Shown here: positions 19,455 through 37,262 of the stretch, piece after piece
Position numbering within the stretch: the stretch's first letter is position 1
Layout: every line of letters begins with the position of its first letter
Assembly: GCF_019448255.1 (NCBI RefSeq)
Contig: NZ_CP080410.1
Location: forward strand, 2,480,001 to 2,544,000
From: Qipengyuania flava
Lineage (GTDB): Bacteria > Pseudomonadota > Alphaproteobacteria > Sphingomonadales > Sphingomonadaceae
Direction: 5' to 3'
DNA: 64,000 bases
The notes under the pieces: generated by a model
Database searches by the model: none
The model's input: the letters and a program-made list of their open reading frames with translations, nothing else
Told to the model about the DNA's origin: nothing
Made by a program: the position numbers and the translations under genes

Positions 19455-19489
19455 TTGACTGAAGCAATCTATTTGCACTATTAGTGCCA
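19455..19489 (+). promoter_or_regulatory. Promoter with 17-bp island operator (site A)
   Basis: The operator copy is TTGCACTATTAGTGCCA at 19473-19489, a near-perfect palindrome centred on 19481. It belongs to the same family as the sites near 24190, 24244, 36863 and 36889. A -35-like TTGACT (19455-19460) followed 18 bp later by TATTAG places the operator over the -10 region of the GST promoter. The divergent desaturase gene shares the region. Confidence 0.7.
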
Positions 19490-19528
19490 TAACATGCAAG
19501 ATTGGCAATAGCCAGAAGAGACTGAAAC

Positions 19529-20683
19529 TTGACCTACACGCTCTATGGAATGGCCGGATCGCTCTACACGGCGCGAGCCCGCTCCTACATGCGCACCAAT
19601 GCCGTCCCCTTCACAGAGGTGAAAGCAGGCAGCGAGGAGTTCACAGGCGAGATCGTCCCGCAGATCGGTCGCTGGATCATACCCGTGATCAAAACCCCCG
19701 AAGGCTCGATCGTTCAGGACGGCGCAGACATTATCGATCACTTGGATGGGGCCGGGTTCAGCAAGCATCCGATCTATCCTGCGGACCCGGTGCTGCTGCT
19801 GATCGCCCATGCGTTCGAGCTGTTTGGTTCACACGGCCTTCTGCGTCCCGCTATGCACTACCGCTGGAATTTCGATGAAGTGAACCTGCCCTTCTTGCGG
19901 GAGACATTCCGCGACGTCCTCCCCTCGGGTCTGCAAAAAGATGCAGAGGATGCCGCTTTCCTCCATGCCAGCGGGCGCATGAGGCAAGCTGCTGTGGTGT
20001 TCGGGGTTACGCCCGACACGCAGAAATTGGTGGAAGAGAGCTACGCGCAGTTCCTTGTCCTGATGGAACAGCACTTACGCCACCACTCATTCATGCTCGG
20101 AAGCCATGCAACTATCGCCGACTACGGCTTGATCGGAGCGATGTACGCTCACCTTGCCCGCGATCCGGTGCCGCTGAGGCTGATGCAAACAAGCGCTCCC
20201 AACGTGTTTCGCTGGGTCGAGCGGATGAACATGGCGGAGACCTTCGTCGATGAGGCAGTCGCCAAGGCGCAAGGCAAACTCTTCGATGGTGACAGCCTAC
20301 CCGTATCCTTGCTCCAGCTCATGCGTTTCATCGCCGACGACTACCTTCCCGAGATCACGGCGCATGTCGAACGCGCAAACAGCTGGCTTGAGCGTCATCC
20401 CGAAATCGAGACTGGATCGCCGACTAAAAACAAATCGATGAAGAGTGGCATGGGGCTGGCGCCGTTCCAGTGGCGCGGGGAGGAGATCGAAACGGTTGTC
20501 ATCCCGTACCGGTTCTACCTGCTGCAAAGGCTGAAGGATGCGTTTGATCGCCAATCGGAAAATGACCGGTCTACGATCCGCGCGCGTTTTGAAAGTACCG
20601 CGCTTGAAAGCCTTCTGGACCTGCGGATCAACCGCAGAATGGAGCGGCGTGACAATCAGGAAGTCTGGGGCGAACTCCAGTAA
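19529..20683 (+). CDS. Long glutathione S-transferase family protein
   Basis: The 384-residue product has an N-terminal thioredoxin-like GST domain, LYGMAGSLYTARARSYMRTN then RWIIPVIKTPEGSIVQDGADIIDHLD. The PVI...GSIVQDGADI segment is the glutathione-contacting Ser-Asp type motif (here QDGADI). A helical C-terminal domain with HSFMLGSHATIADYGLIGAM follows, and an extra C-terminal extension of about 120 residues beyond normal GST length. The start is TTG at 19529, preceded by AGAAGAG. It is a paralog of the GST at 25361. Confidence 0.83.
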   Translation: MTYTLYGMAGSLYTARARSYMRTNAVPFTEVKAGSEEFTGEIVPQIGRWIIPVIKTPEGSIVQDGADIIDHLDGAGFSKHPIYPADPVLLLIAHAFELFGSHGLLRPAMHYRWNFDEVNLPFLRETFRDVLPSGLQKDAEDAAFLHASGRMRQAAVVFGVTPDTQKLVEESYAQFLVLMEQHLRHHSFMLGSHATIADYGLIGAMYAHLARDPVPLRLMQTSAPNVFRWVERMNMAETFVDEAVAKAQGKLFDGDSLPVSLLQLMRFIADDYLPEITAHVERANSWLERHPEIETGSPTKNKSMKSGMGLAPFQWRGEEIETVVIPYRFYLLQRLKDAFDRQSENDRSTIRARFESTALESLLDLRINRRMERRDNQEVWGELQ

Positions 20684-20803
20684 TAACGGACTGCCATCTG
20701 CTCTATTCGGTCGACCAAGATGTCGCGACAATCACATTTAGTCGACCGGACAAGCTTAAAAATTGATGCCAGCGAAGCTCAGCGACTTCTTCAAGCCCGT
20801 GGC

Positions 20804-21106: not shown

Positions 21107-21133
21107 CAGGAACTCTCCTGCGTAGCTGGAATA

Positions 21134-22219
21134 TCAAAGCGAAATCATGATCCCACGGCTGGGCGAAACCTTATTGTCGAGCATATCGCACCAGATTCTA
21201 GCGACATCGCCTGAACCTGAGATGGCTTCAACCGCGATCTGGTCCGAGATCGACCTGGCAATCGCTGCGCCTGCCTCAGATCCGCGACGCCAGATCTCAC
21301 CGTGACCCCATTCGGCATCGCGCTTGGCAATGTGGCCGGGGGCGAAGAAGAATTTGGGCTTGGCACCGGGCAGATCCTTGTCCCGTTTGCGCTCGGCCTC
21401 CCAGTGGGTGGCGCCTACAACGCAACTCTCGACCATGTTCTCGCGGAGCAAATGGTGGAGCTTGCCGGTGAGCGGCCCATCGCCCGACATATCAATCCAC
21501 GCGGCCGGAAGGCTCGCATCGATCGCGTCTTCGGAGCCATAAGTCACAATCTGGTCGCAACAGTTCAGGCTCTCGACGAAGGGCACATTGCCGGATGATG
21601 TCAGGCCGACGACCTTGTGAGTCACATTCGGATCATTTTTGAGAAGATGCGCCAGGCCGAAACCGGTTTTCGAGGAGATCGAACCGATGATGATCTGCTG
21701 TGCCCCAAAGAATTGGTTATCGATCAGATAGTCGTAGAGAACGAAGGAGGTGACGAAGAGAGGAAACAGCAGGCAACGTTCGTCTTCAAGTTTTTGAAGA
21801 GCCTCCGGCTCGCCTTTCGTCCGCCGATACTGATTGTAGAGCGCAGGCAGCTCTGCCCGGTGCTCGCTCACATCCATAAAGAAATCGTCCGCCACATGAC
21901 CGGGTTTCAGGATGACCTCACTTGCCATCGGAAAGAAGCCATAGAGCCGCTCACCTTCGGCAATAGCGTTGCTACGCGATTCCACCACGTCTGCCATGGC
22001 CCACCCGGGGACCTTGCCCCACTCGCCCTCGGCCGGAAAATACTTCCAGTATCCGATTGCTTCCCCCGAGACAGCGTAGCTGACGTTGTTCGCGGTCAGT
22101 CCCATCTTCTCGATGGCGACACGGATCTGGCCAACTTCGAGGGGTTGTTGCTCGCTTTCGACAATCTTCGTGCGCCGAAGGTCGTCGCGGGCGACCCAAA
22201 GCTCGGTCTTCATGGCCAT
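21134..22219 (-). CDS. DUF2855 family protein
   Basis: A 361-residue protein of the DUF2855 family, distantly related to medium-chain dehydrogenases. Visible features are ANNVSYAVSGEAIGYWKYFP, PGWAMADVVESR, and a Rossmann-like core, AQQIIIGSISSKTGFGLAHLL with HKVVGLTSSGNVPFV. The biochemical role is not known. GGAGG precedes the ATG by 5 bases. It is the third gene of the minus-strand operon that begins with the MDR oxidoreductase and is controlled by operator B1. Confidence 0.8.
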   Translation of the reverse strand: MAMKTELWVARDDLRRTKIVESEQQPLEVGQIRVAIEKMGLTANNVSYAVSGEAIGYWKYFPAEGEWGKVPGWAMADVVESRSNAIAEGERLYGFFPMASEVILKPGHVADDFFMDVSEHRAELPALYNQYRRTKGEPEALQKLEDERCLLFPLFVTSFVLYDYLIDNQFFGAQQIIIGSISSKTGFGLAHLLKNDPNVTHKVVGLTSSGNVPFVESLNCCDQIVTYGSEDAIDASLPAAWIDMSGDGPLTGKLHHLLRENMVESCVVGATHWEAERKRDKDLPGAKPKFFFAPGHIAKRDAEWGHGEIWRRGSEAGAAIARSISDQIAVEAISGSGDVARIWCDMLDNKVSPSRGIMISL

Positions 22220-22220
22220 C

Positions 22221-23165
22221 TCAGCCTCCTTTGATGTTTTCGAGAAAGGCGATTACCTCGCGCGCGTAGGCTTCGGGCACGTCCTCGAGGAGGAAATGCG
22301 AGCCGCCTTTCAGGATGATCGGTTCGTAGTCGCGCGTGCCCGGGATTGCCGGGCGGACGCTGTGAAACCCTTTGGGAGAAACCTGATCCTTGTCCGAATA
22401 GATCGCCTGGAATGGCTTTTCGAATCTCTTGAGTTTCTGTAGCGCATGCCAGTTCTCAACCAGCATCGGGTTATCATTGCGCGTCGGCAGCATCTGCGTG
22501 AATTGCCTGTTGCCGACGAGGTAGCGCCTATCAGGATATGGCGCTGCGAAGCCCGCCACGTCCTCAGCCGGCATGTCCTTGAGGGTAATGCGGCTCAAAG
22601 TCTTCCAATGTTGCCAGTTCTTCCGGAGCCGGATGTAGAGTTGAAAGCGGCGCAACATCGCCGCGCCCTTACGAGCCATCTTTGCGATCGGCTCTTCAGG
22701 ATTCCGCACAGGAAAACCCGTATTCGACATAATCACGCTTCGGGCGCGATCCTGATGATCGGCAATCGCACGAAGGCCGATTATCCCTCCCCAATCGTGC
22801 AGGATGAAATGAGCGTCGGTGAGTTGCAGCTTTTCAAACAGCGCCTCCCTCACCCAGGCTACGTGGCGGGCAATCGTGTAGTCGCTCATCTGTGTGGGCT
22901 TGTCCGAACGGCCCATCCCAATGAGATCGATCGCGATGGCGCGGTATCCGTTGGCGGCCAATATCGGGATCAGCTTTCGCCACATAAAGGACCAGGTCGG
23001 ATTGCCGTGGATCATGACCACTGGCGGCCCATCCATTGGGCCTTCGTCGACAAAGGCGAGGCGTAAGCTGCCACCCTCATGATCCGAGACGTCGACATAG
23101 TTCGCCGCAAAGGGAAAATCGGCAAGATTCTCGAAACACGCGTCAGGGGTGCGCAACCGGTTCAT
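22221..23165 (-). CDS. Alpha/beta hydrolase, haloalkane dehalogenase-like
   Basis: The 314-residue protein matches the haloalkane dehalogenase branch of the alpha/beta fold. The oxyanion segment is MIHGNPTWSFMWRKLIP. The nucleophile elbow is FILHDWGGIIGLRA, with Asp in place of Ser as in dehalogenases and epoxide hydrolases, followed by the Trp that helps bind halide. HGN also contributes an Asn halide ligand. The catalytic His lies in KGGSHFLLED. True dehalogenase activity is plausible but unproven. It overlaps the upstream MDR gene by 4 bp. Confidence 0.83.
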   Translation of the reverse strand: MNRLRTPDACFENLADFPFAANYVDVSDHEGGSLRLAFVDEGPMDGPPVVMIHGNPTWSFMWRKLIPILAANGYRAIAIDLIGMGRSDKPTQMSDYTIARHVAWVREALFEKLQLTDAHFILHDWGGIIGLRAIADHQDRARSVIMSNTGFPVRNPEEPIAKMARKGAAMLRRFQLYIRLRKNWQHWKTLSRITLKDMPAEDVAGFAAPYPDRRYLVGNRQFTQMLPTRNDNPMLVENWHALQKLKRFEKPFQAIYSDKDQVSPKGFHSVRPAIPGTRDYEPIILKGGSHFLLEDVPEAYAREVIAFLENIKGG

Positions 23166-24166
23166 CGCGTGTCGCCTACCTTCAGCAACAATTTGCCGTG
23201 GTTCTCACCGCGGAAGATCATCTCGTATGCATCGGGAAAGTTCTCGATGCCCTCGACCACGTGTTCGCGCATCTTCAGACGCCCATCCTTCCAGGCAGGC
23301 ACCAACCATTCGAGTGCTTCAGGCACGCGGTGCATGTAATCGCGCATGGTGTAGCCGCGGATCGTCAGGCTGTGCGTCACGACAGACATGAAATTGGCCG
23401 GACCACGTGCCCCGGCAAAATCGCCATATTGCGAGATGCCACCACAAACGACGATACGCCCGCGATATTTCATAAGGCCGAGTACGGCTTCAAGCGTCTC
23501 GCCCCCGACATTGTCGAAATAGAGGTCGATCTCGTCCGGACATGCCTGCGCCAGAGCTTCGCCGACATTACCGGCCTTGTAATCGATCGCCTTATCAAGC
23601 CCGAGTTCGTCGAGCAGGTATGCGCATTTCTTCGGCCCGCCAGCGATGCCGACGACCCGCGCCCCGGCTCCCTTGGCGACCTGCGCTGCAATCGAACCTA
23701 CCGCGCCCGATGCAGCAGAGACGACGACGGTTTCGCCCTCTTTAGGCCGCCCCAAGTCACTCATGCCGAAGTAGCCAGTGTATCCTGTCATCCCCAGTCC
23801 GCTTAGGAACTTGTTGGATGGCGCGAGCGAAGTGTCGATCTTGCGCAGGTTCTTCGCCCGATAGACGCCGTGCGTCTGCACCCCAGTAAAGCCCGTCACC
23901 CATTCTCCGACATCGAACTGGTCCGACTTGCTTTCGGTTACTTCACCCACCCCGAATGCGCGCATCACGCCGCCGGGTTTCACTGGTGGCAAGTAGCTGC
24001 GTTTGTCGGTAATCCACCCGCTCATTCCTGGGTCGATCGATATCGTGTGGATCGCGACGCCGACTTCGCCATCACACAAGTCACGCATCTCGTCATGCGT
24101 CAATTTCCATACGTCGCGTGCCGGGCTTGCGCCCGGATATCGCGTCATCCGGATTTGAGCTGGCAA
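23162..24166 (-). CDS. MDR-family NADP-dependent oxidoreductase (2-alkenal/curcumin reductase type)
   Basis: A 334-residue medium-chain reductase of the PTGR/CurA group that reduces alpha,beta-unsaturated carbonyls with NADPH. It has DPGMSGWI, GMTGYTGYFGM, the Rossmann motif VVVSAASGAVGSIAAQVAK with GIAGGPKKC, and DLYFDNVGGETLEAVL. No zinc-ligand cysteines are seen. The start is TTG at 24166, preceded by a strong GGAGGTGG; the next ATG is 18 bp further in and too far from that site. It is the first gene of the operon with the hydrolase and DUF2855. Confidence 0.87.
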   Translation of the reverse strand: MPAQIRMTRYPGASPARDVWKLTHDEMRDLCDGEVGVAIHTISIDPGMSGWITDKRSYLPPVKPGGVMRAFGVGEVTESKSDQFDVGEWVTGFTGVQTHGVYRAKNLRKIDTSLAPSNKFLSGLGMTGYTGYFGMSDLGRPKEGETVVVSAASGAVGSIAAQVAKGAGARVVGIAGGPKKCAYLLDELGLDKAIDYKAGNVGEALAQACPDEIDLYFDNVGGETLEAVLGLMKYRGRIVVCGGISQYGDFAGARGPANFMSVVTHSLTIRGYTMRDYMHRVPEALEWLVPAWKDGRLKMREHVVEGIENFPDAYEMIFRGENHGKLLLKVGDTR

Positions 24167-24183
24167 CTTCCACCTCCATTTAT

Positions 24184-24252
24184 TGGCACTTTATATGTCA
24201 TTTTGCATTCTGCCGCGGGTTTTGCAATTGCTTTTTGACATTTATAGTGCCA
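24184..24252. promoter_or_regulatory. Divergent promoter region with two inverted island operators (B1, B2)
   Basis: B1 is TGGCACTTTATATGTCA (24184-24200), next to the MDR operon start on the minus strand. B2 is TGACATTTATAGTGCCA (24236-24252), its inverted copy, next to the MBL operon start on the plus strand. Their centres are 52 bp apart, about five helical turns, so two dimers could sit on the same DNA face or form a loop. TATAAA and TATAGT inside the operators could be the -10 elements. Confidence 0.78.
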
Positions 24253-24266
24253 CTTCTTTCCGACGG

Positions 24267-25349
24267 ATGACGGAGGATGCATTGAAGAAGGTAGGGATCG
24301 GCCTGGTGGCCGTGGTAGGCTTGGCGCTTGTCGCGGTATTCGCATTACAAAAGCCCATCGGGTTTTGGCTATTCCAGCGCGGAATCGAACAGAACCTCGG
24401 CGGCAACACTCTCGCCGGGATCGAGGATGGACTGCATGTCGGGCTGTGTGGAACGGGTTCGCCGATGCCGAACATCGACCGTGCTGGGCCATGCAACATC
24501 GTTATCGCCGGGGACCAGGCCTTCGTTGTCGACATTGGCGAGGGTGGCGGGCGGAACCTGGCCTTGATGGGTTTCAACGCTGGCGATCTGGATGGGGTTT
24601 TTCTGACGCACTTCCATTCCGACCACATCGACGGACTTGGGCCGCTCCAGCTGTTTCACTGGACCCGGGGTTCTAACACTGCCCCGCTCCCGGTCTATGG
24701 CCCAAGCGGCGTAGAAGCCGTGATCGACGGGTTCAACGCGGCTTACGCGACCGATGATGCCTATCGCACTGCGCATCATGGCGAAGATGTAGCCCCATCA
24801 AGCGGTGGCGGATCCGAAGCGCGCCCCTTTGAAATGACCGGCGATAGCGTCATTGTGCTTGAACGAGGCGACCTGAGGGTCGCCGCCTTCAAAGTCCCGC
24901 ATGATCCAGTGGATCCGGCTGTAGGCTATCGTTTCGACTACAAAGGACGCTCGCTCTGCATCAGCGGCGACACTGAGAAATCCGCAAATCTCGAACGTGT
25001 CTGCGAAGGTGCCGACCTGATCGTGCACGAGGCTTTGCAAATGGAAATGGTGAGCGAGTTGCAGGCGATGCTAACTGCACAGGGAGTCGAAAGCGGCGCG
25101 AAGATCATGTTCGATATCAGAGACTATCACGCGTCGCCGCAGGACGCCGCGGAAAGCGCGCAAGCAGCAGGGGCGCAAATGCTGGTACTTAGCCATCTCA
25201 TTCCACCCCTTCCCAGCGCCTACCTGTATCCTGCGTTTCTCGGTGACGCACCCGACCGCTTCGACGGCACGCTGGTCGTGGGCGAAGATGGCATGTTGTT
25301 CTCGCTGCCAGCCTCTAGCGATGCCATCAAGCGGCGCGAACTCATGTGA
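24267..25349 (+). CDS. Membrane-anchored or exported MBL-fold hydrolase
   Basis: The 360-residue product starts with a hydrophobic helix (VGIGLVAVVGLALVAVFAL), so it acts in the periplasm or on the membrane. The metallo-beta-lactamase fold shows GSPMPNIDRAGPCN, the zinc site LTHFHSDHIDGL, SGDTEKSANL, and a late His in VLSHLIPP. It resembles the AtsA/ElaC-like group of MBL proteins. The substrate is unknown; a lactone, ester or sulfate ester is possible. ATG 24267 is used. TTG 24282 has a better-placed GGAGG and is an alternative start. Confidence 0.82.
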   Translation: MTEDALKKVGIGLVAVVGLALVAVFALQKPIGFWLFQRGIEQNLGGNTLAGIEDGLHVGLCGTGSPMPNIDRAGPCNIVIAGDQAFVVDIGEGGGRNLALMGFNAGDLDGVFLTHFHSDHIDGLGPLQLFHWTRGSNTAPLPVYGPSGVEAVIDGFNAAYATDDAYRTAHHGEDVAPSSGGGSEARPFEMTGDSVIVLERGDLRVAAFKVPHDPVDPAVGYRFDYKGRSLCISGDTEKSANLERVCEGADLIVHEALQMEMVSELQAMLTAQGVESGAKIMFDIRDYHASPQDAAESAQAAGAQMLVLSHLIPPLPSAYLYPAFLGDAPDRFDGTLVVGEDGMLFSLPASSDAIKRRELM

Positions 25350-25360
25350 GGAGACCGGCA

Positions 25361-26353
25361 ATGTACACGATCCATGGTGCATTGGGCTCGCCCTATTCGC
25401 TGAAAATGCGCGCCCTAATGCGATATCGCCGGATCACGCACATCTGGTCACACGGTAGCCAGATGCAGCAACTTGCCGCCGAGAAAGGCCTGCCGCCCGT
25501 TATTCCGATTATCGAATATCCTGACGGCAACTTCAGGAACGATAGCACGCCAGTGCTTTATGATCTGGAAGAACGACATTCCGAGCGCAAAGTCGTTCCG
25601 GCAGACCCGGCACAGGCATTTATTGCTCACCTCCTCGAGGATTTCGCCGATGAATGGCTGACCAAGGCGATGTTCGGCTACCGATGGCTGGAGGAAGTCG
25701 ACCAAATCCAGATGAGTCGCTGGCTGTCTTTCGACGCGCTCAAGGGCGGCGGGTTGGATTCCAGCCAGGGCATGGCGGAGGTGTTCCGCGATCGACAGGT
25801 CGGCCGCATGGCGATCGTCGGCTGCACGCGCGAGAATTTTCCGCTGATCGAAGCCTCGACCCGAAGGGTGATGCACGCACTCGAAGATCACGTGGTGAAC
25901 GAGCACTGGTTGTTCGGCAGCCGTCCCTCGCTCGCCGAATTCGGGATCTATGGACAGCTGTCGCAGCTCGGGGTTGATCCCACCGCGCAATCAATGATGC
26001 GCGCCGACTATCCTTACACCTTCCGTTGGTTGCTCCATGTCGATGATGCGTCGGGCATCGAGGGCGAATGGGATGATGCGGATGCTCCGCTCAAGCCCGT
26101 CGCCCAAAGCCTGCTTGCAGAAGTCGGTCGGGTCTACGTTCCTTTCCTGCTCGCCAATGCGGCGGCTGCCGATGCAGGCGAAAAGACATTCCGGATCGAA
26201 GTCGATGACATGCCCTACGAGCAAGGCACCTTCAAGTATCAGCTGAAATGCCTTGCTGATCAGCGGTCGCGCTACGCGGCACTCAGCGATGAAACGCGCG
26301 GGCGGATTGATCCGGTGCTTTCTGCTGCAAACTGCCTGGAGTTCCTTCAATGA
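25361..26353 (+). CDS. Long glutathione S-transferase family protein (paralog)
   Basis: The 330-residue GST-like protein starts MYTIHGALGSPYSLKMRALM, where the SPYSLKMR stretch is the usual Ser/Cys-type active-site helix. LPPVIPIIEYPDGNFRNDSTPVLYDLE is the cis-Pro and glutathione-binding segment. The C-terminal domain has HWLFGSRPSLAEFGIYGQL. It resembles the 19529 GST in length class and in both these blocks. It lies 11 bp after the MBL gene with GAGGAG between, and overlaps the next gene by 4 bp, so all three form one operon. Confidence 0.83.
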   Translation: MYTIHGALGSPYSLKMRALMRYRRITHIWSHGSQMQQLAAEKGLPPVIPIIEYPDGNFRNDSTPVLYDLEERHSERKVVPADPAQAFIAHLLEDFADEWLTKAMFGYRWLEEVDQIQMSRWLSFDALKGGGLDSSQGMAEVFRDRQVGRMAIVGCTRENFPLIEASTRRVMHALEDHVVNEHWLFGSRPSLAEFGIYGQLSQLGVDPTAQSMMRADYPYTFRWLLHVDDASGIEGEWDDADAPLKPVAQSLLAEVGRVYVPFLLANAAAADAGEKTFRIEVDDMPYEQGTFKYQLKCLADQRSRYAALSDETRGRIDPVLSAANCLEFLQ

Positions 26354-26817
26354 AACACGTTCTGGAGCGTCTGTTTCCGGCGCAGTTCGACAATGTCTAT
26401 CGCGGCAACAGACTTGCACTGTGGTTCTTTTATCCGCTCACCGCGGTGACGCTGTGGCGCAGCCAACATCACATGTTTGCGCCGGATGGCGGAGCGCAAA
26501 GCATCGCCACGATCCCGCTAGACAACTACGCGAGCGGCGCAACCGCCACGATCATCGCGATCTTCGCGCAATGGGGCCTGGTGCAACTCTTGCTCGGCCT
26601 GCTGATGTTGCTGGCCGCGTTCCGCTACAGATCCATGGTGCCTCTGATGTGGCTGATCGTGCTCGTGGAATGGACCGGGCGCGGATTGATCGGACGGTTC
26701 AAGCCGGTTGAAACGCTTGGCACTGCCCCCGGCCAGGTCGGCAATCTTGTCGTGCCGGTCATCGCACTTGTCATGCTGATCATGGCGCTCTGGCCAGAGA
26801 AGAAGACGGAAAGCTAG
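26350..26817 (+). CDS. Small four-helix membrane protein
   Basis: A 155-residue protein with four predicted membrane helices, at about residues 19-35, 62-82, 85-105 and 130-148. I do not recognise a named family. It shares a pattern with the island protein at 32260-32730: HxF-PDGGA, then a helix with FAxxG...G-ML-L, then RYxSxVPL and a WT-containing helix. The two are probably paralogs. It ends the plus-strand operon and overlaps the convergent DUF1330 gene by 4 bp. Confidence 0.7.
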   Translation: MKHVLERLFPAQFDNVYRGNRLALWFFYPLTAVTLWRSQHHMFAPDGGAQSIATIPLDNYASGATATIIAIFAQWGLVQLLLGLLMLLAAFRYRSMVPLMWLIVLVEWTGRGLIGRFKPVETLGTAPGQVGNLVVPVIALVMLIMALWPEKKTES

Positions 26818-27227
26818 CGGGCCGACGCTTGCGTCTTGATATTGAGTTGCCCCTCCAGCCCGGCAGCTCGGTGAACCGCGATCTCTTGATACTCAGATGA
26901 AAGTATCATGGCGCGGAAAGCTTCGAGCGAGGGATACTCAACCAACGCGACCATGTCCCAGTTATCCTCGACTTCGCCGAGCATCAGGCCGGTGACAGTG
27001 CCATCGAAAACCGGGCGACCGCCGTGTTTCTCAACCAATGGAAACACGCCGCGCGCGTAGATTGCATAGGCCTCCGCACCACTCAGTTCGGTATCGCGGC
27101 CATCGGGATACTCGGCACTCGCCTTGAACTTGAGCAGGTTGACCATTACGAAAGGTCCATCCTCCTCGCCTCCGAAGAACTCTTTCATTCGTTCGCCCGA
27201 CGGATTCACCTGATTGACGACCTGCAT
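26814..27227 (-). CDS. DUF1330 family protein
   Basis: The 137-residue dimeric alpha/beta-barrel type protein has GPFVMVNLLKFK, GAEAYAIYARGVFPLVEKHGG and LVEYPSLEAFRAMILSSEYQE, which are DUF1330 hallmarks. Family members are often near catabolic genes, but the function is unclear. It is the last gene of the long minus-strand operon, 3 bp after the FGE gene. A GLMLGE motif is shared with the 30069 protein. Confidence 0.82.
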   Translation of the reverse strand: MQVVNQVNPSGERMKEFFGGEEDGPFVMVNLLKFKASAEYPDGRDTELSGAEAYAIYARGVFPLVEKHGGRPVFDGTVTGLMLGEVEDNWDMVALVEYPSLEAFRAMILSSEYQEIAVHRAAGLEGQLNIKTQASAR

Positions 27228-27230
27228 TTG

Positions 27231-28798: not shown

Positions 28799-28837
28799 TC
28801 ACTCTCAAAAATTGTCCTTCCGAAGCAATGGCACCGA

Positions 28838-30040
28838 TCATGCCGAAACTCCAGTGGCGCCCGCGCGTCTACGGATTTCGGCTGCGACGAGCCACAAACG
28901 GTCCTGTCCCCAGACGCACAGGTCTTCTTCGCCCTCGCCGCCTCGCAAACGGTAGCTCGGCACTCCCCAGAGGCCGAGTTCATCCCCCATTTCGGCCTGG
29001 TAGCGAGCGGTTTCGTCCTTCCAACCGGGCGAAACGAGGTGGGCTTGTGCATCGCCCCAGTCGAGACCAGGCTGCTCGACCGCCTTTCGCAATCCGGCCC
29101 TCCTGTGAAGCGCGACGCCCTTGCGAAAAGCGAGGTCGAGCGCGGCGGACATGAGCTGCGTATCGCGCCCCTGCCGTCTCGCCCAAGGAAGCAACGAGTA
29201 AATCCGCCGCGTGGGTTCGCCGATGGGCGTCATGACCGGCCCGAAGCCGATGCCAATGTTCTCCGCCTCGCGCTTGGTGTCGAACATGAGGTAGAGGCCC
29301 TTCTCGCGTGTTGCCGGCACGCCGCGCATGATCATTGGTAGTACTGGCTTGTGAACCAGCTGGACCCCGCATTCGCGCGCCATCGCGATCGTGCGGTCAT
29401 AGATGATCGAGGTATAGGGCGAATTTATGGAAGGATAGAAATCGAGCGTCAGCGCGCTGGCATCGGCACCGCTCACATCAATTTCGGGTCGCGGGCACAA
29501 GAAAGGCAGCGAAACATCGCGGCAAGCGCCAAGATCGCGCAGGCGCTGCTCAAGATAGAACAGCCTATCCACCCCCCAATACCATTCGCCCGCATAGTAA
29601 AACATCGCGCCGGAATAGTGGCCGAGCTCGGCCAGCCTTGCGCTGCCCGCATCGAGCACAGCTTCACTCGGAGCATGATGCGCTGATCGATCGAGCTCGG
29701 ATGGCCGCTTGAGGCCATAGTACGGTGCGATCAGTTCCGCATCGCGCCGTGCCCAGGTGTCGAGTTTCTCCAGCTCTGGCTGGTTTTTGCCGCCGGTTGC
29801 GCGAATCTCGTGCCTGACGAGCTTGATGTCGTAGCGCTCGCCGAACCGGTCAAGGACCTGCTCGGCCAATTGCGAGTAGGGATCGTCCCATTGGTGGAAA
29901 TATTCGACGATATGCGGCGCGCCCTTGCGCACTCTGCGTCGCTCTGCCTTGGCGCGGGCCTTCGCTCGCCTCTCGGGATCAATGACCCGGTCGAACATTC
30001 GCATCATTAGCCGACGCAGCAGCGCCGGCGGATCGACCAT
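28838..30040 (-). CDS. Tandem DSBA/2-hydroxychromene-2-carboxylate isomerase-like protein
   Basis: The 400-residue protein holds two DsbA-like (HCCA isomerase, GST kappa type) units. The second is the clearer, with LTLDFYPSINSPYTSIIYDR at about residue 198 carrying the Ser that activates glutathione, RKGVALHRRAGLRKAVEQPG and LGLWGVPSYRLRGGEGEE. The first unit reads IVEYFHQWDDPYSQLAEQVL near residue 44. Such enzymes isomerise ring-cleavage products of aromatics with glutathione. A basic stretch rich in Arg and Lys precedes the first unit. The single-unit norm is about 200 residues. Confidence 0.8.
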   Translation of the reverse strand: MVDPPALLRRLMMRMFDRVIDPERRAKARAKAERRRVRKGAPHIVEYFHQWDDPYSQLAEQVLDRFGERYDIKLVRHEIRATGGKNQPELEKLDTWARRDAELIAPYYGLKRPSELDRSAHHAPSEAVLDAGSARLAELGHYSGAMFYYAGEWYWGVDRLFYLEQRLRDLGACRDVSLPFLCPRPEIDVSGADASALTLDFYPSINSPYTSIIYDRTIAMARECGVQLVHKPVLPMIMRGVPATREKGLYLMFDTKREAENIGIGFGPVMTPIGEPTRRIYSLLPWARRQGRDTQLMSAALDLAFRKGVALHRRAGLRKAVEQPGLDWGDAQAHLVSPGWKDETARYQAEMGDELGLWGVPSYRLRGGEGEEDLCVWGQDRLWLVAAEIRRRAGATGVSA

Positions 30041-30068
30041 CAGCCGCGAGTTGGGATTGTTTTCAGGC

Positions 30069-30707
30069 TCAACCGGCTGGGTTATCGCGCGAACTCCTCT
30101 TCTCCCGCCGACCTATTGCCGCCAGCCCTGCCCAGGCCAGAATGAGCAATGCCAGACCGACGATCAGGCGGACCTGCACAAACGTCAGCGTCGGACGGGT
30201 AATGAAGACTTCAGTGTGCTCGAGCGCGCCGTATTTGTATTCGCGCGCATCCACCATCTCAGGATCGAGGATCATGTCGATAAGGTCGCGCAGCGAGCGA
30301 TAACGGATCACCGCCACGCGGTCGATTTCCTTGCCATATTCGCCCAGCATCAGCCCCGCAGGCTCGCTCAAAAAGACAGGGTGGCTGCCGCGTGCAAGGA
30401 GAAGCGGCACAACCCGGCCTGTGTACTCCTCTTCGGCTGCGATGGCCTCTGGACCTTGCTTGCGTGTCTCCAGATTGACCGCGTAGAATTCGCGCCCGTC
30501 ATCACGCGGGATCATGTCGGTGAGGTTGCGCAGCATGCTACCCGCCGGTGCCTCGTCGCGATCCAAATCGTACATCTGCTCCATACGCGAGAGGAGCTCT
30601 TCGCCCTCGGCCTCGGTCAACGGATCGCCATTGCCGCCATACCACGCCCAGAAACCTGCATAGAGGATTGCGAGAAATCCGATCCAGATCCATTTCGCCT
30701 TGGTCAT
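30069..30707 (-). CDS. Membrane protein with DUF1330-like soluble domain
   Basis: The 212-residue protein has a helix at each end (residues 6-22 and about 180-200) and a soluble middle domain, probably in the periplasm. Its EFYAVNLETRK, RVVPLLLARGSHPVF and AGLMLGEYGKEIDRVAVIRY blocks parallel those of the DUF1330 protein at 26814, so it looks like a membrane-tethered paralog. The function is unknown. It lies between the CoA ligase and the isomerase in the same operon. Confidence 0.65.
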   Translation of the reverse strand: MTKAKWIWIGFLAILYAGFWAWYGGNGDPLTEAEGEELLSRMEQMYDLDRDEAPAGSMLRNLTDMIPRDDGREFYAVNLETRKQGPEAIAAEEEYTGRVVPLLLARGSHPVFLSEPAGLMLGEYGKEIDRVAVIRYRSLRDLIDMILDPEMVDAREYKYGALEHTEVFITRPTLTFVQVRLIVGLALLILAWAGLAAIGRREKRSSRDNPAG

Positions 30708-30709
30708 GG

Positions 30710-32263
30710 TTACGTATCCTCTCTTGAAAAGAGCTTCCTCAACTCGTTCTTCTTCACCTTGCCCGAGGCAGTACGCGGCAGGATTTCGACGAGTTGGAGC
30801 CGTGCCGGAAGCTTGTAGCGGGCGAGCCTGCCTTCGAGGCCTGAGCGAAGGTCATCCAACCCAATATCGACCCCCTGCTTTGGCACCACCACCGCACAGC
30901 CGATCTCGCCCCAGCGTTCATCCGGCAGTCCGATCACAGCCACTTCGGCGATGTCGTCGCGCGCATAAATGGCACCCTCGACCTCTGCCGGATAGACGTT
31001 TTCACCGCCCGAAATATACATGTCCTTGAGCCGGTCCTGGATTTTGTAGAAACCATCCTCATCGCGCGAAACCACGTCCCCGGTGCGGAACCAGCCGTCG
31101 ACAAAGCTCTCGCGATTTGCCTCGGGGCGGTTCCAGTAGCCGGGGGTTATGCAGGGCCCGCGCATCCAGAGCTCGCCGAGTGACGCCTCTTGACCTTCGT
31201 CATCGACGACCTTCAACTCGAAGCTGTGCGATGCCTTGCCGCTCGCTTCGATTGGCTCCCCAGCGAAGTGAGCCGGCATTGTTACACCCGCTCCCGCACT
31301 TTCCGTCAGACCATAGCCTTCACGCAACCGCAGCCCGCGAGCCTTCCATCCTTCCAAGAGCGCAAGGGGCACCGAAGAGGCTCCCACGAACGAAGTAACG
31401 ATCCTCGAAAAATTGGTCGCCTCGGATTGGGGATGAGCAAGCATCGCCTGGTAGATCGCTGGCACGGCAACAAAGTGCGTCACACCCAGCTCGGGATCGT
31501 CGATCAGGCCAAGCACCTTGCCGGGATCGAAGGTCCTCACAATGGCGACGCAGGCCCCGGCGAGAAAGCAAGGCCCGATTACGCCGTTCACCCCGGCGAT
31601 ATGAAACAGAGGCATGAAACAAAGCGATGTCGAGCTAGTGCCAATCGACGCATCGGCAATCGTGCCCCATGCATTCAAAAGCTGCATCTGGTGGGTGATG
31701 ACCACACCTTTGGGGCGCCCGGTCGTACCCGATGAGTACATCAGCATGCAGATATCAGAGAGTAATGGTGGCGCGTCTGGCCATGCCAGCGACTTCGATA
31801 CCGCTATCGCGCGCTCATAATCGCTCTCGCTGCCATCGCCGGCAGTTTCAATCCGGCATTCGAAGCACGGCATGTCTGCGATATCAGAGGCAAGCTCGCT
31901 CAGGTCACGATCATGAATCAGCAACTTAGGGCCGGCATCTTCGGCAATGAATGTAAGTTCTTGCCCAGTCAGCCGCCAATTCAGCGCGACTGCAACCGCG
32001 CCAATGCGCCAGCACGCGAAAATCACTTCGAATACATCGCTGCTGTTCATCATCAGATAGGCGACACGGTCACCCTTTGCGATGCCTAGCGAGCGAAGAT
32101 GCGCCGCCAGAGCGCCGACGCGGGTATTCATTTGCGCATAGGTAAAGCGCCGCGAACTCGCGATGTCGATCTGGGCAAGATTGTCCGGCGTGCGGTCAGC
32201 TGCGGTAGCGATCCAGTCGAAGCCAAAGGCCGGACCGTGCGACGGAAGTTCGGCGGATATCAT
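30710..32263 (-). CDS. Acyl/aryl-CoA ligase (ANL superfamily)
   Basis: The 517-residue AMP-forming ligase activates a carboxylic acid as its CoA thioester. It has the P-loop MYSSGTTGRPKGVVITHQ, the GYGLTESAG motif, WFRTGDVVSRDEDGFYKIQDR and the hinge DRLKDMYISGGENVYPAEVE. The catalytic Lys lies in RTASGKVKKNELRKLF. The substrate cannot be told; the setting suggests a hydroxylated or desulfated acid. It overlaps the next upstream gene by 4 bp. Confidence 0.9.
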   Translation of the reverse strand: MISAELPSHGPAFGFDWIATAADRTPDNLAQIDIASSRRFTYAQMNTRVGALAAHLRSLGIAKGDRVAYLMMNSSDVFEVIFACWRIGAVAVALNWRLTGQELTFIAEDAGPKLLIHDRDLSELASDIADMPCFECRIETAGDGSESDYERAIAVSKSLAWPDAPPLLSDICMLMYSSGTTGRPKGVVITHQMQLLNAWGTIADASIGTSSTSLCFMPLFHIAGVNGVIGPCFLAGACVAIVRTFDPGKVLGLIDDPELGVTHFVAVPAIYQAMLAHPQSEATNFSRIVTSFVGASSVPLALLEGWKARGLRLREGYGLTESAGAGVTMPAHFAGEPIEASGKASHSFELKVVDDEGQEASLGELWMRGPCITPGYWNRPEANRESFVDGWFRTGDVVSRDEDGFYKIQDRLKDMYISGGENVYPAEVEGAIYARDDIAEVAVIGLPDERWGEIGCAVVVPKQGVDIGLDDLRSGLEGRLARYKLPARLQLVEILPRTASGKVKKNELRKLFSREDT

Positions 32264-32730
32264 AGGGCCTTCGGCTCACGCGGCGTTCGAAGCGAGAGAA
32301 AGAAGAAACCGAGGAGCAGCGGCACAAGCACTAATGTGACGTAGGCTTCGGGTGGCAGATAGCCGTCAGCTTGCCCCTTCGGACCCCACATGGTCCAGGT
32401 GTGAATGCAGCGTTCGAGGAACAGCAGGCCAAGAGCCAGCGGCACAAAACTCTGATATCTCAGCGAAATCAGCAGGAGCATGATCCCCCAGACGATCTGC
32501 GTTGCCCCGGCCCAGGCAAACAGCCGGATAATGGTGTCACCATTTACTGAAAGGTCACGCCCGGCGATCACTCCTGCGCCGCCATCGGGCAGGAATGTGT
32601 GAATGTTGCCCGGAATGATCGTGATCAGCGACATCAGGGCCAGGAACCACGCAGCAGCTCGCGGTCCGGCGTAGCGATCATTAGTGGAAGGCGGCAGCAC
32701 GGCCAAGGTTTGGTCCTCCTGTTGGCTCAA
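32260..32730 (-). CDS. Small four-helix membrane protein (paralog of 26350)
   Basis: The 156-residue protein has four predicted membrane helices (about residues 25-44, 68-88, 92-108, 130-148). The segment HTFLPDGGAGVIAG followed by FAWAGATQIVWGIMLLLISL and RYQSFVPLAL matches the other small membrane protein of the island. It overlaps the genes on both sides by 4 bp, so it is tightly coupled to the sulfatase and ligase. The function is unknown. Confidence 0.7.
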   Translation of the reverse strand: MSQQEDQTLAVLPPSTNDRYAGPRAAAWFLALMSLITIIPGNIHTFLPDGGAGVIAGRDLSVNGDTIIRLFAWAGATQIVWGIMLLLISLRYQSFVPLALGLLFLERCIHTWTMWGPKGQADGYLPPEAYVTLVLVPLLLGFFFLSLRTPREPKAL

Positions 32731-34397
32731 TTCGGCCAGTAAATGTACTCGTCACCGTCCTCGAACCGCTCGGCCAGCGTCTTGTCGATCATGGTCACCA
32801 TATCGGCAGTGGTCGGATAGAGAGCTGGCTTGCGATCCTTGTGATGCGCGGCCAGCAAGGCTTCGAGTTCAGCCAGTTTTTCGGGATTGCGGCTCGCGAG
32901 GTTGACCTGCTCGGTCGGATCATTCGCCAGGTCGAACAACCAGCGCTTGTCCTGCTTGCCATCGACCTGCAGCTTCCAGTCGCCGGCCCGCACGACCTTG
33001 TAATAACCGCTGCTCCAGAATAGCGGCGCGTCAGGGCGCTCCATTTGGCCCGCGCCTGTCATTGCTGGGAGCAAGTTGCGTCCATCGATCGGGACTCCCG
33101 CCGGCAGTCTACCGCCACCAACCGCGGCCAAAGTCGGCATGACATCGACATGCGCGGCTGGCAAATCGATCTGCGTGCCGGGAGCGATCCTGGCAGGCCA
33201 ACGCGCCAGCAAAGGCACACGAATGCCGCCTTCAAAGAAGGAGATCTTGAACCCGCGATACGGCGCATTGACTTCAGGCAATCCGATGTAACCCGCACCG
33301 CCATTGTCGCTCGAGATGACGATGATGGTGTTGTCCGCAAGGCCCTGCTCCTCGAGCTTGGCCATCACACGGCCAACGCTTCGGTCGAGCGAACGGACCA
33401 TAGCTGCGTAGACCCGCAGGCGATGCGGCGCGATATCGCCGACAGCCTCGTAATCCTCGCGCGTCGCCTGCAGCGGCGTGTGAACTCCCCAATGGGCCAG
33501 ATAGAGGAAGAATGGCCTATTGCGGTTGTTTTCGATCACGCGTTCGGCCTGATCGGTCCAGTAGTCCGCCAGATATCCGCCGGGTTCGAATTTCTCACTC
33601 TTGTTGAACGTGGTGCCGTATCGACCCGAAGCCCAAAGGAAATTGTCGATCGGGTCGAAATCGACCTTGGCATTGACGACGTTGGGATCGTCTTCCGGAA
33701 GGTGCATCAGATCGGTCATGACGAGGCTTTCATCAAAGCCTTGGTCAAGCGGGTGAAATCCATTGCCGGTACCGAGATGCCACTTTCCGATATGGACGTT
33801 GTGATAGCCTTGCTCCCTGAGAACTTCGGCGATCGTCACTTCCTCGCTGGGAAGGCCCATATCGTCATAATCGGGCTTCCCGACCTCGGCCTCGGCATCA
33901 TAGGTCGCAGGCGGCAAATCATCCCGGATGTCGTTCCCGACCATGGCGACGACCCTCCCAAATCCGGGGCGGGTCGGCGTGTATTCGAAGCCAGTGCGGG
34001 TCGGATAGCGCCCGGTCATCAACTGCGCGCGTGACACGGCGCAGGTCGCGCTGCCGGAATAGGCTTGGGTGAAGATCGCGCCTTCTGCAGCTAGCCGATC
34101 GATATTTGGGGTAGGCACCGCGCCACCGGCAACACCCCCGCCAAAGGTCGACAGGTCGTTGATCCCGAGATCGTCGAACAGGATGAACACGATGTTCGGC
34201 GCTCGCTCAGCCGGGGGCAAATCCGCCTCGGACGGTCCTTGCTGCCAAACGATGGGCCGGTTGGGCGCGATTTCTTCCTGTTCCGCCCTGCGCTCTACGA
34301 ATGCAAGGATCAGCGCGCTCCGGTTGAGGTAACCAACCACCCCAAGCCCAATCGCAACCACGCCAATGCCTAGCACCCATTTCTGCCAGCGCTTCAT
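32727..34397 (-). CDS. Membrane-anchored arylsulfatase-type sulfatase
   Basis: The 556-residue sulfatase has an N-terminal membrane anchor (WVLGIGVVAIGLGVVGYL), which places it in the periplasm. Metal residues appear in NIVFILFDDLGINDLSTFGG. The modified-Cys site is CAVSRAQLMTGRYPTRTG, where Cys would become formylglycine. The usual CxPSR is CAVSR here, with Val instead of Pro. HIGKWHLGTGNGFHPLDQGFDE and SSDNGG give the remaining active-site blocks. It hydrolyses a sulfate ester of unknown nature. Confidence 0.9.
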   Translation of the reverse strand: MKRWQKWVLGIGVVAIGLGVVGYLNRSALILAFVERRAEQEEIAPNRPIVWQQGPSEADLPPAERAPNIVFILFDDLGINDLSTFGGGVAGGAVPTPNIDRLAAEGAIFTQAYSGSATCAVSRAQLMTGRYPTRTGFEYTPTRPGFGRVVAMVGNDIRDDLPPATYDAEAEVGKPDYDDMGLPSEEVTIAEVLREQGYHNVHIGKWHLGTGNGFHPLDQGFDESLVMTDLMHLPEDDPNVVNAKVDFDPIDNFLWASGRYGTTFNKSEKFEPGGYLADYWTDQAERVIENNRNRPFFLYLAHWGVHTPLQATREDYEAVGDIAPHRLRVYAAMVRSLDRSVGRVMAKLEEQGLADNTIIVISSDNGGAGYIGLPEVNAPYRGFKISFFEGGIRVPLLARWPARIAPGTQIDLPAAHVDVMPTLAAVGGGRLPAGVPIDGRNLLPAMTGAGQMERPDAPLFWSSGYYKVVRAGDWKLQVDGKQDKRWLFDLANDPTEQVNLASRNPEKLAELEALLAAHHKDRKPALYPTTADMVTMIDKTLAERFEDGDEYIYWPN

Positions 34398-34437
34398 TCC
34401 TTCACCCTCTTGCGATCGACCAGTTCGACAAAATGCG

Positions 34438-34469
34438 CCCGGTCCGGCTCACTCGCAAGCCGAACCGGG
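34438..34469 (-). terminator. Hairpin between the TonB receptor and sulfatase genes
   Basis: A 12-bp stem, CCCGGTCCGGCT and AGCCGAACCGGG with one mismatch, and an 8-base loop. It sits in the 99-bp gap after the receptor stop. Such hairpins often lower expression of the downstream genes relative to the receptor. Confidence 0.5.
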
Positions 34470-34496
34470 TCGCAAGGGATGGGAGAGGACCCATCG

Positions 34497-36836
34497 TTAG
34501 AAGCGATACGTGGCGGTCGCGCCGTAAGTACGCGGCGTCCCTTCGGTGCAGCGGATGCCGGTCGAACCCGGGAAAACGCCGTTGCGCAGGCCAAAGGCGG
34601 CATCGAGCGGCTGCGGGAAGCGAACGGTGCAATAGCCCTTGTCGAACAGGTTGCTGCCAAACACCGAGAGTGACCAGCTATCGTTGAGCGATTCAATCGT
34701 GAACCGCGCATCGAGCAAGCCAAACCCGTCCTGGATCGATTGGGGATTTCCGTCGGTCGCCGCGCCGATATAGGCATCGGACTGGAAGCTGTAGTTCGAG
34801 TTCAGACGCCACCCGATGTCCGAGCTACCGAATTCTCCGCGCCACTGGAAACCGAAGGAGCCACTGAATTCGGGTGAGCCCACGGCTACACTTTGCCCCG
34901 TCAGATCTTGCGTTCCGCCCAGCCCCGGAAGACCGGACGCCAGTGGGAAGTCAGTGAACTCGCTGTCGAGATAGGCGAGCGAGGCCATGACCTGAAAACG
35001 GCTCGAGGGACGAATGACCGTGTCGAATTCGAAGCCCTGCTGCCGCAAGTCGCCGGCATTGAGGACGATAAAGCCGATCCCGTCGAAAGTACGATCTTGC
35101 AGTCCGTTCACATCCATCCGGTAGAAGGTGATGTTCGCCTGCAGCGCGCCATCTAGCCAAGTGCTCTTCGCGCCAATCTCGTAATTGTCGATCGTCTCCG
35201 AAGCGAATGTCCTTCGCCCGAGGAGCGGAGCTCCGCTGCCGCCCGAGTTAAACCCGCCCGATTTGTAGCCCGTCGAATGCGAAGCAAACAGAAGTAGATC
35301 GCTGTGGGGCTGGAAATTGATCCCGAGGCGATAGGTGAACTCGTCTTCGTCCAGCGCCAGGACCTGATTTTCCGGCGCACGGAGGGCAGCCGCGAAGGGG
35401 TTGTTGCGCGTCTGAACAAACAGCGCGTCCTTCTTGTCCTGCGTCCAGCGCCCGCCGAGCGTGAACCAAAGGCTATCGCTGGCATAGATATTGGCCTGAG
35501 CGTAGGCCGCGATGCTTTCTACGTCCTGGGTAAAGTCGAGATCAGTCGCATCTTCGCCCAGCCCCATGGCAAGCAGGCCGTTGCATTGCGGCCGCGCAGG
35601 CGGCGGCACCAGCGTGTTGCAGAAGCCCGGGCCAAGCTGGAATTGCTCGTCAATCCGGTAATCTTCCTGGAAGTAATAGAGCCCGGCTACGAAATCGAGC
35701 GCTCCGCCAAGCAAACCACGTTCGGGGGAGATGATTTGCAGCTCGTGGTTGTGGCTCTTGCTGCGGTATGCTCCGTCACGGGTGAAGATATTGACCGGCG
35801 TGAAGCTGATGTCGCCATCGTTCTGAAAGTTGTCCCAGTCACGATAGGAATTGATCAGCCGGAACGTAAACTCGCCCACATCGAGCGACGCGTCGCTCAT
35901 CACACCCCAGTGCTTGTCGTCGAAACGCGATTCCTGGAACTGGTTCAGCGTCCGGTCAAACAAGGTAGTATCTGGCAGCACACCGCCAAGGCGCGCTTGG
36001 AAGAATGCAAGCTGTGCGGGCGTGACCGACGTCGGATCGAAGTCATTGTTCGACAGCCCGTCGCCTGTGATCTTCGAGTAGTCAGCGCGGACAGTCCAGT
36101 CGAGCGAACCGAATTGCGCATTCAGGCTGATCCTGCCGGCAGCGGTTTCCGAGCCACCCAGCTGCTCGCCATCAAGGCGATTGGTCCAATAGCCGCCAAA
36201 GTCCTGATAGAGCCCGGCCGCACGGATCGCGACATTCTCGCCAAGCGGCGCATTGATGAAGCCATCCACACGATAGCGATCACCATTACCAACTTCGCCG
36301 CGCACCATGCCGGAGAACTGGTTCCGAGGCGTGCCCGAACGCAGCGACAGTGCGCCAGCGCTGGCATTGCGGCCAAACAACGTGCCTTGCGGGCCGCGCA
36401 GAAGTTCGACGCCTTCAATGTCGAGAAAGCTTGCGATAACCGAACCTGAGCGCGGAATATAGACGCCATCGAGGAAGGTCGCGACACTCGGCTCGATCGC
36501 GGTGTTGCCAGCAGCACCGATGCCGCGCACGCGCAAAGTGGTAGTGGCGATCTGCTGCGATTGGCGCGCCTGGAAGTTTGGCGCGACTGAAGTCAGCTCA
36601 AGAATGGTGTCGACGTTGGCTTCTTCGAGTGATTCAGCGGAGAACACTGCAATCGAGATGGGCACGTCTTGCACATCTTCGGAACGCTTTTGGGCCGTAA
36701 CGACGATGACGTTATTCTCCGCCTCTTCGTCCGCGCGATCCTGAGCCGATGCCGCCCCTGAGAATCCGGTAGCCATAAGGCCCGCGATGCTCGCAGATAT
36801 CAGAAATTTGGTCGCCTTGCCTTGCCCGTGCTCCAT
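34497..36836 (-). CDS. TonB-dependent outer membrane receptor
   Basis: Energised outer-membrane uptake channel. The start at 36836, preceded by AGGAGGGAGAG, gives 779 residues. A signal peptide (ISASIAGLMATGFSGAASAQ) is followed by the TonB box-like NNVIVVTAQKR, then the plug: DVPISIAVFSAESLEEAN, RVRGIGAAGNTAIEPSV and VELLRGPQGTLFGRNASAGA. The C-terminal beta barrel ends RTYGATATYRF with the terminal Phe. The family (CirA/FyuA-like) is common in sphingomonads for catabolic substrates. It is the first gene of the large minus-strand operon. Confidence 0.93.
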   Translation of the reverse strand: MEHGQGKATKFLISASIAGLMATGFSGAASAQDRADEEAENNVIVVTAQKRSEDVQDVPISIAVFSAESLEEANVDTILELTSVAPNFQARQSQQIATTTLRVRGIGAAGNTAIEPSVATFLDGVYIPRSGSVIASFLDIEGVELLRGPQGTLFGRNASAGALSLRSGTPRNQFSGMVRGEVGNGDRYRVDGFINAPLGENVAIRAAGLYQDFGGYWTNRLDGEQLGGSETAAGRISLNAQFGSLDWTVRADYSKITGDGLSNNDFDPTSVTPAQLAFFQARLGGVLPDTTLFDRTLNQFQESRFDDKHWGVMSDASLDVGEFTFRLINSYRDWDNFQNDGDISFTPVNIFTRDGAYRSKSHNHELQIISPERGLLGGALDFVAGLYYFQEDYRIDEQFQLGPGFCNTLVPPPARPQCNGLLAMGLGEDATDLDFTQDVESIAAYAQANIYASDSLWFTLGGRWTQDKKDALFVQTRNNPFAAALRAPENQVLALDEDEFTYRLGINFQPHSDLLLFASHSTGYKSGGFNSGGSGAPLLGRRTFASETIDNYEIGAKSTWLDGALQANITFYRMDVNGLQDRTFDGIGFIVLNAGDLRQQGFEFDTVIRPSSRFQVMASLAYLDSEFTDFPLASGLPGLGGTQDLTGQSVAVGSPEFSGSFGFQWRGEFGSSDIGWRLNSNYSFQSDAYIGAATDGNPQSIQDGFGLLDARFTIESLNDSWSLSVFGSNLFDKGYCTVRFPQPLDAAFGLRNGVFPGSTGIRCTEGTPRTYGATATYRF

Positions 36837-36854
36837 TGACTCTCCCTCCTCTAA

Positions 36855-36909
36855 CGACATTAATAGTGCCATTTGTTTGTTGGCATATACAGTGCCATTA
36901 TATGAGTCA
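36855..36909 (-). promoter_or_regulatory. Promoter with two island operators (C1, C2) upstream of the TonB receptor
   Basis: C2 is TGGCATATACAGTGCCA (36881-36897) and C1 is CGACATTAATAGTGCCA (36855-36871), each 17 bp and matching the B and A sites. On the minus strand TTGACT (36904-36909) could be the -35 element; the -10 region would then fall within C2. This predicts repression of the receptor operon. Confidence 0.72.
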
Positions 36910-37247: not shown

Positions 37248-37262
37248 CCTCCGTCTCCGCCA
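37248..37262 (+). repeat. attR core (15 bp)
   Basis: CCTCCGTCTCCGCCA, identical to the tRNA-Ser 3' end. The flanking bases differ, so there is no second tRNA here. It marks the right boundary of the island. Confidence 0.88.

Follow-up and report, generated by a model that had tools for sequence, protein, structure and literature searches.

The 64,000-nucleotide stretch of the Qipengyuania flava genome analysed here (contig NZ_CP080410.1; hereafter the window) harbours a 21.4-kb island inserted at a tRNA-Ser gene and spanning 15844-37262. Five copies of a 17-bp near-palindrome lie inside this island, as does all of its cargo, and are very probably operators at which the island's own TetR-family regulator, a predicted repressor (28172-28798), controls the cargo units.

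The tRNA-Ser island and its cargo

The tRNA-Ser(GCT) gene (15767-15858, plus strand; ARAGORN) ends in a 15-bp attL (15844-15858), and these 15 bases recur once in the window, as attR (37248-37262, plus strand), just past the promoter of a TonB-dependent receptor gene. Adjoining the tRNA is a gene for a tyrosine integrase (16018-17169, plus strand; Pfam PF00589, PF13356 and PF22022), followed by one for an AlpA-type regulator or excisionase (17212-17574, minus strand; PF05930). Such an integrase beside the tRNA gene, with the end of the tRNA repeated directly at the opposite boundary, marks a tRNA-integrated island, and the GC content is 58.3% within these limits versus 65.6% and 65.2% outside. 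A sister island on an uncultured Erythrobacter contig (L075) aligns at 92.4% identity up to position 37262 exactly, beginning at about 18180, the limit of the fetched stretch; it carries the same 15-mer at that end, and its flank beyond is unlike the window. We place the island ends by the att repeat, the GC content and the end of this alignment. In the same genus, three fetched stretches that carry the right-flank kinase lack a tRNA and hence showed no empty site. Spread by plasmid was considered and rejected, the TetR having no match in a plasmid collection at E 1e-5.

Seventeen genes, tetR among them, lie behind the five predicted operators, in operons that we infer from gene order. The gap at 19 kb is bordered leftward by a gene for a fatty-acid-desaturase-fold enzyme (18532-19422, minus strand; PF00487, under all NCBIfam cut-offs) and rightward by that for GST1, of glutathione transferase fold (19529-20683, plus strand; PF13417). 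From the gap at 24 kb, the MDR operon runs leftward on the minus strand and encodes an MDR-family reductase (23162-24166; like curcumin and prostaglandin reductases, below those cut-offs), a haloalkane dehalogenase family protein (22221-23165) and a DUF2855 protein (21134-22219; PF11017). The MBL operon runs rightward on the plus strand, with genes for an MBL-fold hydrolase (24267-25349; PF12706), a second protein of glutathione transferase fold, GST2 (25346-26353; PF13417), and a small protein that is by eye a membrane protein (26350-26817; no Pfam family, homologues in 9 of the 79 related loci described below).

The remaining genes form a long minus-strand run led by the TonB-dependent receptor (34497-36839; PF00593, PF07715). 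It continues with a sulfatase with a Cys-type motif and, by eye, an N-terminal anchor (32727-34397; PF00884), another small membrane protein, again by eye (32260-32730; no Pfam hit, homologues in 26 of the 79 loci), an AMP-binding acyl-CoA (coenzyme A) ligase-like enzyme (30710-32263; PF00501), the protein p212, membrane-anchored and DUF1330-like by eye (30069-30707; no Pfam hit), a DSBA-domain protein (28838-30040; PF01323, a domain shared by 2-hydroxychromene-2-carboxylate isomerases and kappa glutathione transferases), the TetR, a formylglycine-generating enzyme with a lipoprotein-like leader (27231-28172; PF03781; leader by eye) and a DUF1330 protein (26814-27227; PF07045). The two small membrane proteins resemble each other, and p212 is, by eye, like the DUF1330 protein with an added membrane anchor. 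A terminator-like hairpin of 14 pairs (34438-34469, minus strand) stands between the TonB and sulfatase genes and could lessen the expression of genes further along, among them tetR; taken as a whole, the scan that showed it gave no more hits than shuffles.

Predicted operators and their conservation

An earlier note on this DNA had described five near-palindromes with the consensus TGGCACTnTATATGYCA, and all five are present where it placed them. O1 (19473-19489, minus strand; TGGCACTAATAGTGCAA, written on the strong-half strand) lies between the desaturase and GST1 genes, 51-57 bp upstream of the desaturase start depending on the start codon. O2 (24184-24200, plus strand; TGGCACTTTATATGTCA) is upstream of the MDR operon, O3 (24236-24252, minus strand; TGGCACTATAAATGTCA) is upstream of the MBL operon, and O4 (36855-36871, minus strand; TGGCACTATTAATGTCG) and O5 (36881-36897, minus strand; TGGCACTGTATATGCCA) are at the TonB promoter. 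The centres of O2 and O3 are 52 bp apart and the two are inverted, as the earlier note had said, with their strong halves outward; those of O4 and O5 are 26 bp apart. The consensus fared less well than the positions: with up to three mismatches it recovers four of the sites, O1 having more mismatches. The sites are better described by the symmetric 17-bp palindrome TGRCAYTNNNARTGYCA within a longer AT-flanked site, each window site combining one strong half (TGGCACT or its complement) with a weaker one. O3 overlaps a -10-like TATAGT (24243-24248), the second hexamer of a promoter-like TTTGCA-16-TATAGT, and a hexamer inside the site fits steric repression. A decayed sixth predicted operator (28829-28845, plus strand; TGGCACCGATCATGCCG) lies just upstream of tetR with a score of 11.1; at about its place, related loci have a good site (18.1, L081) or a moderate one (14.8, L077).

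The five sites exist as described, are restricted to the island and exceed what chance would give. The four recovered by the consensus are its only matches in the window, whereas shuffled sequences gave a mean of 0.24 and none of 100 shuffles reached four. Across the genome, searched as one contig of 2,852,278 bases (2.85 Mb), the same search returned 10 matches versus 8 for a reversed control pattern: all three with fewer than three mismatches are on the island, as is one of the seven with exactly three. For that consensus, the expectation that the 17-mer would be found only on the island thus held.

At E 1e-8, 71 genomes out of 396 from the order, counting that of the window, encode a relative of the TetR. 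A search of a named genome collection found 228 stretches with such a TetR, the best 80 of which were kept; leaving aside L075, whose TetR is 98% identical, gives 79 loci (1.38 Mb). Two of these (L072 and L079) are overlapping stretches of one contig, so that at least two sites are counted twice. We scanned the loci at a threshold of 17 bits with a symmetrised matrix built from the five window sites alone, and it returned 115 sites (91 distinct 25-mers); 200 symmetric column-permuted matrices averaged 0.49 sites and never exceeded 6 in the same loci. In other genera, the matrix picks out palindromes that are close to perfect next to relatives of the TetR. In 34 loci, tetR is preceded by a site no more than 350 bp away; for the permuted matrices, the mean was 0.04 such loci and the maximum 4. 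Three bases on each flank, unused by the matrix, are also conserved, up to 1.1 bits, and the recognition region is almost unchanged across the TetRs aligned. One contig (L042) bears two tetR copies, at 526-1143 and 18717-19337, at both ends of the cluster and 72% and 55% identical to that of the window.

The sites mark a recurrent set of genes: 112 of the 115 lie no more than 300 bp from the start of a gene of the window's families, a related dehalogenase family or a second sulfatase family, against 17.2 expected from random placement in the same loci. Counting a site for both genes where two diverge from it, the adjacent genes are tetR (34), the core dehalogenase (25), GST2 (20), p212 (16), TonB (9), MBL (7), sulfatase (7), second sulfatase (7), MDR (4), GST1 (4, with sites upstream of its homologues in L042 and L045) and DUF1330 (4). 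Whether or not a site adjoins them, the sulfatase and the formylglycine-generating enzyme are each present in 53 of the 79 loci, p212 in 48, the core dehalogenase and the second sulfatase in 39 each and GST2 in 33. The core members elsewhere are the haloalkane dehalogenase, the sulfatases, the formylglycine-generating enzyme and the glutathione transferases. The regulon, as predicted from these patterns, is conserved well beyond the island, which the earlier note had missed.

Strict palindromes were counted in 49 of the 71 TetR-bearing genomes, the 22 left out being mostly more distant. There were 34 in 25 genomes, 25 of them within 20 kb of tetR. Three of the nine far from tetR adjoin regulon families, namely a dehalogenase (3505 in L152), a GST2-sulfatase unit (4140 in L153) and an MBL gene (3474 in L159), and probably mark regulon members in trans. 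The other six showed no tie to a regulon family, and the open reading frames beside three of them, read by eye, included nothing regulon-like.

Pair spacing was compared over the 79 loci plus L041-L049, for sites of at least 13 bits at distances up to 150 bp and with duplicate genomes removed (L041/L070, L042/L072/L079, L045/L080 and L048/L081). Pairs at 25 bp occur in five genomes, upstream of TonB genes where the neighbour is shown, and pairs at 52 or 53 bp in six, for example between MDR and MBL genes in L047 and between sulfatase and GST1 genes in L045; the other distances were 12 bp (two, weak) and 120 bp (one). Pairs at homologous promoters are not independent. The recurrence of 52 bp at two different divergent promoters suggests a constraint, either two dimers cooperating on one face of the helix or a back-to-back promoter geometry.

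The TetR regulator and the regulon model

The island TetR has an N-terminal helix-turn-helix (PF00440, 29.1 bits, cut-off 24), and its predicted model is all-helical (pLDDT 90.5), as expected for the two-domain TetR fold. Many of the 50 Foldseek matches listed for this model are titled TetR regulators (best E 7.7e-4). No cut-off of a named NCBIfam equivalog was exceeded, the best being FasR with 20.8 bits versus 330; the PsrA-type family gave 15.8 of 300 bits. FasR, PsrA and FadR are acyl-responsive TetR regulators, which the island protein resembles by weak sequence matches and, among the 50 listed, by fold matches to FadR (3whb) and FasR (6o6p). It differs from them in lying far under their cut-offs, and the fold matches are those of a generic TetR fold (TM 0.58-0.66 on the query). 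Reading a ligand from the structure was rejected on the same ground.

TetR-type regulators usually repress, and a ligand relieves the repression. Local, autoregulated regulons of TetR-family repressors are a known general kind of control for catabolic gene clusters. The island shares with them a TetR-fold regulator whose gene is part of the cluster, palindromic operators that stand at several of the promoters, divergent ones among them, and are conserved together with the regulator, and likely relief by a ligand. It differs in that its TetR has no named NCBIfam equivalog and that no paper was found for its operator. A literature search over titles and the starts of abstracts, with six spelled-out forms of the operator tried, yielded, among the papers listed, none recognisably on the regulon or the operator; most subscription papers and RegPrecise were outside its scope.

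We infer binding of the TetR to the sites, and repression rather than activation. In the absence of an inducer, TetR dimers on the 17-bp palindromes would block transcription of four units: desaturase/GST1, MDR-dehalogenase-DUF2855, MBL-GST2, and the run from TonB and sulfatase through the ligase and tetR to the formylglycine-generating enzyme. Because tetR lies inside this run, it would also be repressed by its own product, in a feedback loop. The inducer would be a compound that enters via the TonB receptor, or one of its early products. Once the repressor is released, uptake and periplasmic desulfation would be switched on together with hydrolytic dehalogenation, steps that depend on glutathione, and activation with CoA; the sulfatase would be matured by the formylglycine-generating enzyme, which is under the same control.

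Several observations weigh against this model. The window tetR itself has directly upstream only the weak sixth site, and 45 of the 79 loci have no site of at least 17 bits within 350 bp upstream of tetR; 20 have none anywhere in the fetched stretch. One of the site-less stretches (L069) encodes a TetR 86% identical to the window's, on a contig of only 9.4 kb. Nearly half of the TetR-bearing genomes counted (24 of 49) have no strict palindrome, and 11 such palindromes occur in 8 of another 49 genomes, in which a TetR of this kind was not found. Three of these 11 are in the window's genus, in 2 of 36 genomes, and eight in other families, in 6 of 13 genomes; since the bare palindrome also arises without the TetR, it is the clustering near tetR that carries the weight. 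Distant TetR relatives may read a different operator, and loci without a site may reflect drift of the operator or too short a stretch. One of the five operators, O2, has 3 of its 17 bases changed in the sister island L075. A promoter scan found four promoter-like hits versus 7.0 expected, which makes the -10 overlap at O3 weak.

Could the sites be explained otherwise? They sit in AT-rich promoter gaps, where chance or a general promoter element might produce them, but the shuffles, the lack of a close genome match elsewhere and the near-absence of hits from permuted matrices leave this with a negligible probability, and a chance origin was rejected on the shuffles and permuted matrices. That the palindromes are bound by another host regulator, the TetR merely travelling with the cluster, would account for the many relatives without a site directly upstream. 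Against it, good consensus matches in the genome are on the island only, the absence of any close match outside being also the reason why a host-wide regulator was rejected; the sites follow the TetR across genera with the same gene families; in the window's genus, the 36 genomes without the TetR have just three strict palindromes, in two of them; and the cargo genes scanned, which did not include every small open reading frame, showed no further gene for a transcription factor. We consider this explanation very improbable. The earlier note's candidate, the island TetR, instead gains strong support, as a matrix made from the window alone finds the operator with TetR relatives, often upstream of tetR itself and beside the same families.

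The extent of the regulon is a closer matter. The earlier note had assigned all cargo to one regulon, and for the MDR/dehalogenase, MBL, GST and TonB units this is supported; the desaturase fits poorly, a homologue being present in 2 of the 79 loci and beside none of the 115 sites, and its place as a conserved member is doubtful. The TetR might thus govern only some units (MDR/MBL and TonB), with O1, which is in a divergent gap and could serve either gene, acting for GST1 alone and the desaturase being unregulated cargo. We regard this narrower regulon as a serious possibility, albeit one we do not favour: all 17 bases of O1 are unchanged in L075, at its 51-57 bp from the desaturase start.

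Candidate substrates of the regulon

The earlier note had missed that the island hydrolase at 22221-23165 is, by family cut-off, a haloalkane dehalogenase (NF002043, 307.7 versus 265 bits). Its best relative in the PDB is 4mj3 (E 2.9e-68), and its ten best solved relatives are all named haloalkane dehalogenases; we take 4mj3, 6f9o and 5esr to be DmrA, DpcA and DccA. In haloalkane dehalogenases the nucleophilic Asp is followed by Trp, after an HGxP turn. The window enzyme has the motifs HGNP and HDWGG, and the Asp-Trp pair is kept in all 49 dehalogenase-family hits in the loci. Of five hydrolases from other clusters put to the same cut-off, four scored 430-456 bits and one (L045) 103.2, too low to pass. 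The island enzyme shares with haloalkane dehalogenase subfamily I a score above the cut-off as well as the conservation of the HG[E/N]P turn and of the nucleophilic Asp with its Trp; it differs in lying within a sulfatase and glutathione transferase regulon with its own predicted operator.

Cys-type formylglycine sulfatases have the motif C-x-P/A-S/T-R. Among 84 sulfatase hits in the loci, 82 have C-x-P-S/T-R, one has CAVSR and one is unaligned there; the window sulfatase also reads CAVSR, with Val for Pro. The Cys pair of the formylglycine-generating enzyme is kept in 55 of 55 hits. The LAGC leader of the window's enzyme suggests an exported, membrane-bound protein beside the membrane-anchored sulfatase. 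By sequence, the window sulfatase is nearest to carrageenan sulfatases, with a steryl-sulfatase also among the matches listed. Its nearest solved relatives, the marine carrageenan S1 sulfatases (6prm and 9fo1), share its fold; in contrast to their systems, no polysaccharide-cleaving enzyme was recognised among the island's 17 cargo genes, and the presence of a CoA ligase, a dehalogenase and glutathione transferases in the cargo points to small lipophilic substrates.

Taken together, the enzymes of the regulon suggest a sulfated, halogenated aliphatic compound. Such a compound would be taken up through the TonB receptor and lose its sulfate in the periplasm to sulfatases matured by the exported formylglycine-generating enzyme. 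Hydrolytic dechlorination by at least one haloalkane dehalogenase would come next; reactive intermediates would then be opened or reduced with the help of glutathione, followed by activation with CoA, and the island TetR would be the sensor. Chlorosulfolipids are described as natural compounds both sulfated and halogenated, from freshwater chrysophytes and, recently, Pacific coastal water (PMC13413282). The full proposal, a dedicated and horizontally moving uptake and breakdown system for natural halogenated sulfate esters, most likely microalgal chlorosulfolipids, is tentative, the match to these compounds being indirect, and we judge it rather unlikely in that specific form.

For a regulon directed at non-halogenated sulfate esters, such as alkyl or steroid sulfates, with the dehalogenase-family enzymes doing something else, the chances seem evenly balanced. 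The carrageenan and steryl-sulfatase likeness of the window sulfatase speaks for it. Against it, the dehalogenase family comes first among the enzymes whose genes adjoin operators, with 25 sites in 25 loci, most of the hydrolases tested from other clusters lie far above the family cut-off, and the Asp-Trp pair is invariant.

The regulon is predicted from an operator recognisable in dozens of genomes of aquatic sphingomonads and their relatives. Haloalkane dehalogenases occur widely in organisms that have no history of degrading synthetic organohalogens, and their function has on this ground been suggested to involve halogenated compounds of natural origin (PMC6299022). By linking dehalogenases, sulfatases, their activating enzyme and TonB-dependent uptake, the predicted regulon makes a sensor, its operator and a class of substrates available for direct testing. 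If the substrates were indeed halogenated sulfate esters, these haloalkane dehalogenases would gain a natural substrate class.

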